DNA of 64,000 bases from Bacteroidales bacterium (GTDB lineage: Bacteria > Bacteroidota > Bacteroidia > Bacteroidales > UBA932): assembly GCA_015060395.1 (NCBI GenBank), contig SUYP01000006.1, positions 48,479 through 112,478 on the forward strand, written 5' to 3'. The translations under genes were made by a program, and so were the position numbers. The stretch's first letter is position 1; every line of letters starts with the position of its first letter. Under the pieces are notes generated by a model. It was not told where the DNA came from and made no database searches. It worked only from the letters and a program-made list of their open reading frames with translations. Shown here piece by piece: positions 53,468-57,740 of this stretch.

Positions 53468-53475
53468 TATATTTG
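53468..53475 (+). promoter_or_regulatory. -7 box TATATTTG of the aromatic operon leader
   Basis: TAnnTTTG match 8 nt upstream of the leader-peptide ATG. Confidence 0.6.
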
Positions 53476-53483
53476 TAACCGTT

Positions 53484-53546
53484 ATGGGAACTTATCGATT
53501 TAACAGCTTCGGTTTTTACTTTTTCTATTTCCAGAAAAGGGGATAG
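53484..53546 (+). CDS. Phe/Tyr-rich leader peptide MGTYRFNSFGFYFFYFQKRG
   Basis: 20 codons plus TAG; 6 Phe and 3 Tyr including FYFFYF; upstream of pheA; below ORF-track length cutoff. Confidence 0.8.
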   Translation: MGTYRFNSFGFYFFYFQKRG

Positions 53547-53618
53547 ACCGGATGCTGTATGTCGAAAATATAGAATTGATATCGAGCTGTCCGGTTTTGA
53601 TCGGGCAGCTTTTTATTT
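53503..53618 (+). promoter_or_regulatory. Transcription attenuator of the aromatic amino acid operon
   Basis: Segment 1 53503-53513, segment 2 53547-53558, segment 3 53585-53595, segment 4 53602-53610 can form alternative 1:2, 2:3 and 3:4 pairings; TTTTATTTA after 3:4. Confidence 0.75.
53585..53618 (+). terminator. Intrinsic terminator (3:4 stem) of the attenuator
   Basis: AGCTGTCCG / CGGGCAGCT stem (one GU) followed by TTTTATTT, upstream of pheA. Confidence 0.8.
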
Positions 53619-53671
53619 AGAGAGCTGGTGCATTTTGACCTAAAAGTGCTGCAGGTCTGAATGAGAAAGTT

Positions 53672-54502
53672 ATGAAACGGATCGCAATACAGGGAATAAA
53701 GGGTTGCTTCCACGAACAGGCTGCACGTCTGTTCTATGAGGATAACGGGCATATTGTGCCGGAGATAGTGGAATGCGCTACATTCGAAGGCCTGTACAGG
53801 TCGATGGACTCGGGAGCAGCTGATGCTGCCGTTATGGCTATAGAAAATACAGTATCAGGAGGATTGCTGCCTAATTTCGAACTCTTGCGTAAATATGACC
53901 GTAAGATAAAGGGTGAAGTGTTTCTGCGCATCCAGCAGAATCTGATGGCCCTTCCCGGTCAGAGGATAGAGGATATCAAGGAGGTCAGGACACACTATAT
54001 GGCCATAAACCAGACCCGTGAGTTTTTCAAGGATTATCCTTGGATAAGGCTTGTGGAAAGCGAGGATACGGCTAAAAGTGCCGCTGATGTCGCTGAGCAG
54101 GGGCTTGTCGGAGTCGGTGCGGTGGCCTCGGAACTTGCCGCCGAACTTTATGGCCTGGAGGTACTTGCCGGCAGCATCGAGACATATAAGCAGAATTTCA
54201 CGAGATTCCTTGTGTTTGATGATGCCTTTGAAGTGGACCGTCAGCGGATAAACAAGGCCTCGATGTGCTTTACGCTTCCGCATACTCCCGGTTCTCTGGC
54301 CCACGTTCTGACCATTCTTTCCTTCTATGATATGAATCTTACCAGAATACAGTCCCTGCCTATTCCGGGACAGGAATGGCAGTATTTCTTCTATGTGGAT
54401 ATAAAGTTTGAAGATTATCTCCGTTATGAGCAGGCTCTTGCGGCAGTGCGCCCGTTGATGGAGGATTTGGACATATTAGGTGAATATATAGCGGCGATAT
54501 GA
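53672..54502 (+). CDS. pheA: Prephenate dehydratase
   Basis: IAIQGIKGCFHEQAARLF, AIENTVSGGLLPN, ACT domain. Confidence 0.94.
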   Translation: MKRIAIQGIKGCFHEQAARLFYEDNGHIVPEIVECATFEGLYRSMDSGAADAAVMAIENTVSGGLLPNFELLRKYDRKIKGEVFLRIQQNLMALPGQRIEDIKEVRTHYMAINQTREFFKDYPWIRLVESEDTAKSAADVAEQGLVGVGAVASELAAELYGLEVLAGSIETYKQNFTRFLVFDDAFEVDRQRINKASMCFTLPHTPGSLAHVLTILSFYDMNLTRIQSLPIPGQEWQYFFYVDIKFEDYLRYEQALAAVRPLMEDLDILGEYIAAI

Positions 54503-55674
54503 TTATAAAGGCAGCGAAAAGGACGGAAAGTGTAAGCGAATACTACTTTTCGAGGAAGCTCAGGGAAATAGCGGAGATGAATGTCCGGCGTGTCGCAAGT
54601 TGCGAGGAGCCGGTGATAAATCTGGGTATCGGTTCTCCGGACGGTATGCCGCCGGTTGAGGCGGTCGAGGCATTGTGCGAAGGTGCGGTGCAACCCGGGA
54701 ATCACGCATATCAGAGCTATGTGGGACTTCCTGAGCTGAGGAAGGCCTTTGCGGATTGGTACAGCCGCTGGTATGGTGTGGAACTGGACCCCAAGACTGA
54801 AATACAGCCGCTGGTGGGATCGAAGGAAGCGATCCTGCTGATTTCTCTTGCTTTTCTTGACAAGGGGGACAAGGTTCTGGTACCGGATCCGGGATATCCG
54901 ACATATACATCGGCTTCGCGGCTTGTCGAGGCGGAGATTGTCCCATACGATCTGTGCGAAGAAAAGGGTTGGTGGCCGGATTTCGAGGCTCTTGAGCAGA
55001 TGGATATGGAGGGAGTGAAGATAATGTGGACCAATTATCCAAATATGCCGACCGGAGCTTCTGCATCTGAAGAACTGTATGACCGTCTGGTGGATTTCGG
55101 ACGTCGCCACGGCATTCTGATATGCAATGACAACCCTTACAGCTTCATACTGAATGACAGACCGCTGTCTGTATTGTCGCGTCCGGGGGCGAAGGAATGT
55201 TGTCTGGAGCTGAATTCCCTCAGCAAGGCTCATAATATGGCCGGATGGAGGATCGGTATGGTTGCGGCGGAACGTGATGTCATTTCTGAGATTCTCAAAG
55301 TCAAGAGCCAGATGGATTCGGGAATGTTCAAGCCTCTTCAGCTGGCGGCGGTCCAGGCATTGTCCCGGGGACCGGAGTGGTTTGCACGTCTGAATGAGGA
55401 ATATCGCCGTCGTCGTGTCCTTGCCGGAGAAATTTTCGATCTTGTCGGAGCGGAATATGATCCAGAAAGCACGGGAATGTTCCTCTGGGGCAAGGTGAAC
55501 GGGAAAGGTGTCGATATCTCGGACAGATTGCTTTATGAGGCAGGGGTGTTCATAACGCCTGGATTCATTTTCGGAAAGAACGGTGAGAATCATATACGTA
55601 TATCTCTTTGCGCCAAGCCGGAGGTGCTGAAGGCAGCGGCAGAACGTATCGCTGCGACTCTGGCTGTCGGGTAA
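54499..55674 (+). CDS. Class I/II PLP-dependent aminotransferase (aromatic operon)
   Basis: NSLSKAHNMAGWRIGMV PLP Lys, NDNPYSFI; ATGA overlap with pheA. Confidence 0.92.
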   Translation: MIIKAAKRTESVSEYYFSRKLREIAEMNVRRVASCEEPVINLGIGSPDGMPPVEAVEALCEGAVQPGNHAYQSYVGLPELRKAFADWYSRWYGVELDPKTEIQPLVGSKEAILLISLAFLDKGDKVLVPDPGYPTYTSASRLVEAEIVPYDLCEEKGWWPDFEALEQMDMEGVKIMWTNYPNMPTGASASEELYDRLVDFGRRHGILICNDNPYSFILNDRPLSVLSRPGAKECCLELNSLSKAHNMAGWRIGMVAAERDVISEILKVKSQMDSGMFKPLQLAAVQALSRGPEWFARLNEEYRRRRVLAGEIFDLVGAEYDPESTGMFLWGKVNGKGVDISDRLLYEAGVFITPGFIFGKNGENHIRISLCAKPEVLKAAAERIAATLAVG

Positions 55675-55685
55675 AAGCCTGATAC

Positions 55686-55746
55686 TCAGTGATATATGTT
55701 TTATGCCTGCCGCATACATACAGCAGGCATCTGATGTAAGAGATTG
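55686..55746 (+). repeat. Dispersed 61-nt element with ATGCCTGC/GCAGGCAT hairpin, copy 2
   Basis: Ungapped alignment with 47362-47422. Confidence 0.6.
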
Positions 55747-55773
55747 ATAGTTAGCGGTTTAAATGACAGTGGT

Positions 55774-56628
55774 ATGAAGGTAGGAATAATAGGACTTGGA
55801 CTTATAGGAGGCTCTATGGCAGTCGATCTGAAACGTAAAGGCTTTGCGGACGAGGTCATAGGTGTCGAGGCGGAACCTGTAAATGCGGCTGCTGCTGAAA
55901 AGATAGGGCTTGTCGATCGTATGGCTGGTTTGGATCAGTGTATAGGGGAGAGCGATCTTATAGTGCTTGCAGTACCTGTGGGAGCTGCGGTAAAGATGCT
56001 GCCTGAGGTACTTGACCGTTTTGCAGAAGCGGGAGACGAGGGAAAGATCGTCATAGATGTGTGCTCTACAAAGGAGCATCTGGCACGAAGCGTCAGATAT
56101 CATCCTCAGCGCCGGCAGTATGTGGCATCCCATCCTATGGCCGGAACGGAATATAGCGGCCCTTGGGCTGCGATGCCGGGGCTTTTCGATGGCCACGCCT
56201 GCATAATCTGCGATGCTGAAGAATCATATCCGAAAGCGGTCAGGACGGTGGAGAGCCTCTATGAGGCCTTGAATATGAGGACTATATATATGAATTCTTC
56301 CAACCACGATGTGCATACGGCGTATGTGTCCCATATTTCCCACGTGACATCATTCGCGCTGGCTCTTACTGTTCTGGACAAGGAAAGGGATGAGAAGCAT
56401 ATCTTCGATCTGGCTTCGGGAGGATTCTCTTCTACAGTCCGCCTGGCCAAGAGCAGTCCGGATATGTGGACTCCGATACTTTCGCAGAACAGGGACAATC
56501 TCCTCCACGTGATGGATACTTATATAGAGAAGATGCAGGCTTTCAGAAAGGCTATAGATGAGGGGGATGAGGCGGCTGTCAGGAGCCTGATAGAGGAGGC
56601 AAACAAGATAAGAAGGATAATCAGATAA
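55774..56628 (+). CDS. tyrA: Prephenate dehydrogenase
   Basis: MKVGIIGLGLIGGSMAVDLKRKGF, SHPMAGTEYSGP. Confidence 0.94.
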   Translation: MKVGIIGLGLIGGSMAVDLKRKGFADEVIGVEAEPVNAAAAEKIGLVDRMAGLDQCIGESDLIVLAVPVGAAVKMLPEVLDRFAEAGDEGKIVIDVCSTKEHLARSVRYHPQRRQYVASHPMAGTEYSGPWAAMPGLFDGHACIICDAEESYPKAVRTVESLYEALNMRTIYMNSSNHDVHTAYVSHISHVTSFALALTVLDKERDEKHIFDLASGGFSSTVRLAKSSPDMWTPILSQNRDNLLHVMDTYIEKMQAFRKAIDEGDEAAVRSLIEEANKIRRIIR

Positions 56629-56639
56629 ATTTAAATATT

Positions 56640-57740
56640 ATGTCAGACAAGAATCTGGAAATCATCCCTATGTGTGAATGGGGAATGTTTACTGACCCGA
56701 GGCCGTGTGTGGTGGCCGGGCCTTGCAGTGCAGAATCGGAAGAGCAGGTTATGGAGACCGCAAAAGGCCTCAGAGAGATGGGAATCAATGTGTTCCGTGC
56801 CGGAATATGGAAGCCGAGGACACATCCGGGATGTTTCGAAGGTGTCGGTGCACAGGGCTTGAAGTGGCTGCAGAAGGTGCAGCAGGAATATGGGCTTAAG
56901 GTGGCGACGGAGGTAGCTGGTGAAAAGCACGTTGCCGAGTGTCTGAAGCACGGTGTCGATATGGTATGGCTCGGTGCGAGGACTACAGCCAATCCTTTCC
57001 TCGTGCAGGAGATCGCTGACGCTCTCAAAGGTACCGATATTCCTGTGCTGGTAAAGAATCCGGTCAATGCCGATCTGGACCTGTGGATAGGTGCACTGGA
57101 GCGTCTGAGCAGGGCTGGAATCAAGAAGCTCGGAGTCATTCATAGAGGATTCTCCACATTTGATAAGATCAAATACCGTAATGACCCTCAGTGGCAGGTG
57201 GCGATCGAATTGAGAAGCCGCTATCCTGAACTGCCGTTCTTTGTAGATCCAAGCCATCTCGGCGGCAGCAGGGATTACATCAGGGAAATCAGCCAGAGGT
57301 CTCTGGATCTTGGTTTTGAGGGTCTTATGATCGAATCCCATTGCAATCCTTCTGTGGCATTGAGCGATGCCAGGCAGCAGCTCACTCCGGCTCAGCTCCG
57401 CGATCTTCTTTATGATCAGATCGTTGTGAGGGAGAAGGATTCAGACTCTCCGGAATGGAAGGAGAATATAGACCTCCTCAGAACAAAGATCGATGTGATC
57501 GATGAGAATATCCTCTATGCCCTGGGATCACGAATGAGGATCAGCCGAATGATCGGAGAGTACAAGAAGGAGAACAACATAGCCATAATCCAGGCGGCAA
57601 GATGGGACTATCTCCTCGGAAAAGTTCTGGAGAAGGGAAAGGAGTACGGCCTGACTGAAAAGTTCCTGAACGACGTGTTCAATGCCATCCACGAAGCATC
57701 CGTGGAGATACAGAACGACATTATTTCAGGAAAGAAGTAA
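56640..57740 (+). CDS. Bifunctional 3-deoxy-7-phosphoheptulonate synthase / chorismate mutase type II
   Basis: VVAGPCSAESEEQV, VHRGFSTFDK-type region, FFVDPSHLGGSRDYI; C-terminal LRTKIDVIDENILYALGSRM chorismate mutase. Confidence 0.95.
   Translation: MSDKNLEIIPMCEWGMFTDPRPCVVAGPCSAESEEQVMETAKGLREMGINVFRAGIWKPRTHPGCFEGVGAQGLKWLQKVQQEYGLKVATEVAGEKHVAECLKHGVDMVWLGARTTANPFLVQEIADALKGTDIPVLVKNPVNADLDLWIGALERLSRAGIKKLGVIHRGFSTFDKIKYRNDPQWQVAIELRSRYPELPFFVDPSHLGGSRDYIREISQRSLDLGFEGLMIESHCNPSVALSDARQQLTPAQLRDLLYDQIVVREKDSDSPEWKENIDLLRTKIDVIDENILYALGSRMRISRMIGEYKKENNIAIIQAARWDYLLGKVLEKGKEYGLTEKFLNDVFNAIHEASVEIQNDIISGKK

Follow-up and report, generated by a model that had tools for sequence, protein, structure and literature searches.

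The gut bacterium that supplied the 64,000-nucleotide stretch analysed here (hereafter the window), a member of Candidatus Cryptobacteroides (Bacteroidales), carries a well-supported attenuator with an aromatic leader ahead of its genes for phenylalanine and tyrosine biosynthesis. We consider it very likely that the element is a ribosome-mediated transcription attenuator, in which charged tRNA-Phe and tRNA-Tyr would set the expression of the Phe/Tyr genes. The closest pheA relatives of the window's genome were found in Candidatus Cryptobacteroides and Bacteroidales, many of them of ruminant or bird gut origin.

Upstream of the leader ORF stands a TAnnTTTG box, a predicted promoter element, and downstream follow pheA and the genes for an aminotransferase, tyrA and a DAHP synthase/chorismate mutase, with all features encoded on the forward (+) strand. 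The box (TATATTTG, 53468–53475), a putative -7 box of the Bacteroidetes type, lies 8 nt before the leader ATG, as had been predicted. The leader ORF itself (MGTYRFNSFGFYFFYFQKRG, 53484–53546) comprises 20 codons, nine of which specify Phe or Tyr, and has orthologous aromatic leaders in the genus; its coordinates in the original prediction, including the FYFFYF run, proved correct to the base. Within the ORF, the codons Arg CGA and Phe TTT (CGATTT, 53496–53501) precede segment 1 (ACAGCTTCGGT, 53503–53513), which sits directly 5' of the control codons Phe-Tyr-Phe-Phe-Tyr-Phe (53514–53531). At its apex the 1:2 hairpin has a stem (CTATTTCC / GGGGATAG, 53525–53546) that overlaps the last codons and the stop, and segment 2 (ACCGGATGCTGT, 53547–53558), which can pair with segment 1 or segment 3, begins directly after the TAG. 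Segment 3 (GAGCTGTCCGGT, 53584–53595) is both the 5' arm of the terminator and the antiterminator partner of segment 2, while segment 4 (ATCGGGCAGCTT, 53600–53611) and the following U-rich tract TTTTTATTTA make up the 3' half (53600–53619) of an intrinsic terminator that spans 53584–53619 and precedes the first structural gene. All four segments were found where they had been predicted, in the classical attenuator layout. The mechanism requires segment 2 to adjoin the stop codon and the control codons to adjoin segment 1, and both are so placed.

The downstream genes also carry the functions first assigned to them: pheA (prephenate dehydratase, 53672–54502) is the first structural gene and is followed by a class I/II aminotransferase (54499–55674), tyrA (prephenate dehydrogenase, 55744–56628; the listed ORF starts at an upstream TTG, an internal ATG being the likelier start) and a DAHP synthase fused to chorismate mutase (56640–57740). 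Between the terminator and pheA, positions 53620–53671 of the window contain an extra hairpin (GAGCTGGTGCATTTTGACC...); a hairpin of different sequence is present at this site in loci L031 and L034, and many relatives lack one.

The RNA covering 53470–53680 (211 nt) folds at −72 kcal/mol, compared with −47.3 for shuffled sequences (z −5.6). Scanning the whole window for a short residue-biased ORF followed by a terminator and a long ORF returned the pheA leader locus and one unconvincing Arg-rich match, and the same scan found nothing comparable around the window's thrA-like aspartokinase gene. When a covariance model was built for the element, it gave a single strong match in the window's genome, at the pheA locus (next best E 0.08), and in the genus sample strong matches (E < 1e-6) occurred one per genome, many of the sampled genomes being metagenome assemblies.

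In the mechanism that we propose, RNA polymerase would start just upstream of the leader ORF and a ribosome would follow. When Phe or Tyr is scarce, the ribosome would stall in FYFFYF and cover segment 1, so that segments 2 and 3 could pair before segment 4 is made and transcription would continue into pheA. When Phe and Tyr are both plentiful, it would reach the stop codon and cover segment 2, allowing 3:4 to form and transcription to terminate at the U tract near 53619. If no ribosome were present, 1:2 would form and 3:4 would terminate transcription by default.

Folding calculations, in which the masking ribosome was assumed to extend 11 nt past the first base of the A-site codon, revealed that the pairing depends on the position of the ribosome. 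For window RNA whose 3' end lies just after segment 3, the probability of 1:2 was 0.81 when no ribosome was present, and the ribosome-free window RNA gave a P(1:2) of 0.81–0.87 and a P(3:4) of 0.97. Placing the A site at Phe11, Tyr12 or Phe16 gave P(2:3) = 0.96 for the RNA ending after segment 3, while a ribosome at the stop codon reduced P(2:3) to 0.00, with P(3:4) = 0.97 in the completed RNA. Mean pairing of segment 3 was 0.86–0.92 at aromatic codons and 0.56 at the stop for 70 leaders of the genus, and 0.96–0.97 and 0.23, respectively, for 61 leaders of the order. At equilibrium, the full-length window RNA still preferred 3:4 with the ribosome at Phe11 (P 0.93), and antitermination must therefore be kinetic, i.e. 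a race, as is likewise the case for classical attenuators.

An aromatic leader with a terminator upstream of pheA was detected in 71 of 94 distinct loci of the genus; in each of these, the leader is followed by a hairpin and T run (U tract in the RNA) resembling a terminator. CGA-TTT is kept in 70/70 codon-aligned leaders, and aromatic residues dominate the next ~10 positions, the control codons being aromatic in nearly all relatives. Changes at the aromatic positions are mostly Phe/Tyr exchanges, several positions exchanging the two residues freely (e.g. 35 F / 24 Y, 36 Y / 23 F, 40 F / 19 Y), and each leader retains at least two Tyr and at least one Phe. This free interchange of Phe and Tyr codons suggests a sensor of both end products. 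As third codon positions of the genus leaders vary less than second positions, synonymous change alone is no proof that the leader is translated. The CGATTT motif recurs, in some cases out of frame, in 12 of 61 leaders from other families, where codon shuffling would lead one to expect 3, and no pairing accounts for its invariance.

Six loci of the genus (L016, L035, L038, L045, L046 and L060) keep the terminator between frr and pheA and lack the leader together with segments 1 and 2; in L038 and L016 the TAnnTTTG box immediately adjoins the terminator. These loci look like natural deletions of the sensing half. In other loci, pheA begins only a few bases after frr.

Covariation within the genus was assessed in an alignment of 69 leaders, with shuffles and slid partners as controls. 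Pairing 1:2 showed 65 double-changed cells against 20.7 after shuffling, which does not remove relatedness, and 80% of cells paired, compared with 31–44% when the partner was slid; the corresponding values for 3:4 were 52 against 6.1 and 95.1% against 35–49%. In the apical stem of the 1:2 hairpin, 93.5% of cells were paired, with 42 double-changed cells against 19.5 in the shuffles. Pairing 2:3 was 93% paired in the genus, with both strands nearly invariant and little covariation (p 0.07), and such near-invariance is expected of a strand obliged to pair with two others. A lineage with MTRNDFRF-type leaders carries segment 1 nearer to the ORF start (ACGATTTCCGA), where it still pairs with segment 2 (TCCGGAGGTCGT). 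In addition, a swap test compared the locus's own strands with those of other species at 61 of 68 loci from other Bacteroidales families, retained by a stricter cut; own pairs beat swapped pairs in 56/61 loci for 1:2, 60/61 for 2:3 and 61/61 for 3:4, a comparison that removes relatedness only partly. Overall, the attenuator reading of the original prediction is supported, since the aromatic run and the pairings are kept in relatives, with 1:2 and 3:4 covarying within the genus and 2:3 across the order.

Conservation extends well past the genus, most of the sampled members of the class having an equivalent device ahead of pheA. Several other genera of the same family have aromatic leaders whose segment sequences are unrelated, 64 of 68 pheA loci from other Bacteroidales families combine an aromatic leader with a terminator, and phylum-wide an aromatic leader, judged by leader density, occurs in 28 of 29 loci, with a GC-rich hairpin and T run visible downstream (seen by eye, unscored). 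As a control, 1500 stretches of 450 nt were drawn at random from the window; 31 contained an aromatic short ORF and 4 (~0.3%) also a terminator, the thresholds for F/Y density and terminators being the analyst's choice. The strongest argument for function is that, at this phylogenetic depth, every segment has changed in sequence and the pairings are nevertheless intact. Leaders of other families display further peculiarities: [GA]CATAT is present in 32 of 61 of them (L151–L218), compared with 7.4 expected from codon shuffling, and by eye can pair with sequences resembling AUAUG[CU] downstream of segment 2; it may therefore be segment 1 in those leaders. At two loci of one family (L153 and L154), the aromatic leader of pheA extends to 41 codons, roughly double what is usual.

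Alternative explanations were weighed against this body of evidence. A nascent-chain arrest peptide, in which the conserved Arg-Phe, the aromatic run and a free ligand hold the ribosome and the same RNA switch operates downstream, would fit the invariance of CGA-TTT in the genus and its recurrence elsewhere. However, most leaders outside the genus have no Arg-Phe, the aromatic run tolerates free Phe/Tyr exchange, and we know of no arrest peptide that tolerates such exchange of residues. Stalling, and with it antitermination, at plentiful amino acid would also regulate a biosynthetic operon in the wrong direction, and we consider an arrest peptide very unlikely. The invariant CGATTT, having no obvious pairing partner, could also be taken as part of a leader whose terminator is controlled by a ligand or protein (T-box, riboswitch or RNA-binding regulator) independently of translation, and PyrR (E 0.28) is among the best of the Rfam matches that fall below the cut-off. 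However, none of the Rfam families passes its own cut-off, and the primary sequence turns over between families, unlike that of aptamers, while the constant feature is an in-frame aromatic ORF; control of this kind appears highly improbable.

The hairpin might also serve only to terminate frr, the gene upstream, with the aromatic ORF being incidental, given that 62 of the 71 genus loci with a leader have frr upstream and that terminator-only loci exist. Yet the hairpin is separated from frr by the predicted promoter box and the leader, pairings 1:2 and 2:3 have been kept along with the terminator, and aromatic leader and terminator remain with pheA in other families and orders; by chance, the combination occurs in about 4 of 1500 stretches. 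We assign this explanation a minimal probability and retain ribosome-mediated attenuation as the preferred reading.

The short distance between promoter box and leader deserves separate consideration. Of the 71 genus leaders, 33 have the TAnnTTTG box at a distance of exactly 8 nt from the ATG and 41 at no more than 12 nt, the remaining leaders having distances of 16–24 nt or more. With the box centred at -7, transcription is predicted to start ~4–5 nt upstream of the leader ATG, corresponding to a predicted 5' UTR of 4–5 nt. In passages of a study on Bacteroides thetaiotaomicron, promoters are described as being of the -7/-33 type, only ~3.7% of 5' UTRs as shorter than 10 nt, and Bacteroidetes mRNAs as having no Shine-Dalgarno sequences (PMC7366714). 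Within the window, 3 of 16 ORFs with a box within 80 nt have at most 12 nt between box and start, a rough comparison in which the first ATG was taken as the start. Of what the original prediction had put forward as an unusual twist, the close spacing itself is genuine and part of the genus has kept it; the case for calling it exceptional is weakened, and the mechanism does not need it. Because a few window ORFs are similarly spaced and relatives outside these lineages have longer box-to-ATG distances, the nearly leaderless start is not essential; it is a trait of a sub-lineage and probably secondary.

The broader proposal, namely Bacteroidia-wide joint sensing of Phe and Tyr for the pheA/tyrA operon combined with a nearly leaderless leader and ribosome loading at the 5' end in Cryptobacteroides, has in our estimation about an even chance of being correct. 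If so, the ribosome would load at the very 5' end and stay coupled to the polymerase for ~130 nt. If the attenuator works as proposed, transcription and translation would have to be closely coupled in these bacteria, at least at leaders, which could be tested in a genetically tractable relative.

Genes hisG and ilvD and the N-terminal domain of trpE were not found in the window's genome (89.7% complete), so that these operons offered no second attenuator for comparison. The gene content suggests a probable auxotrophy of the organism for His, Trp and branched-chain amino acids, with the Phe/Tyr branch kept. For a phylum in which little amino-acid operon regulation has been described, the element would represent a well-defined and conserved case of ribosome-mediated attenuation, and its family, absent from Rfam, is rich in natural variants, some loci even being without the sensing half.

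With respect to known systems, Rfam at the gathering threshold yielded only a tRNA match over the whole window, and no T-box, riboswitch or Bacteroid-trp; at a relaxed threshold, only weak PyrR and Phe_leader matches appeared, both below cut-off. The Phe_leader model (RF01859) scored the element at 18.9 bits (E 0.64), below its cut-off of 55. Attenuation of pheA is textbook knowledge in enterobacteria, where the pheL attenuator of E. coli and its relatives consists of an aromatic leader peptide, a four-segment RNA and an intrinsic terminator before pheA. The element described here shares with it the target gene, the aromatic leader, the four segments and the terminator ahead of pheA; in contrast to pheL, its leader mixes Tyr with Phe and is predicted to start nearly at the 5' end, and its operon contains tyrA in addition to pheA. 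Bacteroid-trp RNA (RF01692) is associated with trp operons and belongs to a different operon. It was proposed as a cis-regulatory RNA of Bacteroidetes by Weinberg 2010 (PMC2864571).

Closer in phylogeny, leader-peptide attenuation upstream of amino-acid biosynthesis operons is proposed from transcriptomes in passages on Flavobacterium psychrophilum (PMC9723704), and for sORFs in long 5' UTRs in passages on B. thetaiotaomicron (PMC7366714). Both concern the same phylum and the same proposed mechanism, but the passages in question mention neither a pheA leader nor a model with four segments, nor covariation across the class. Literature searches, in which Vitreschak 2004 and Lopatovskaya 2010 figured as reference entries, retrieved no paper naming the element. 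The comparative-genomics attenuator predictions of these two studies reportedly include some Bacteroidetes operons, and the pheA attenuator may already be listed there. We conclude that the device is real and old but that its mechanism is very probably textbook attenuation, on which joint sensing of Phe and Tyr and the nearly leaderless start may be variations.
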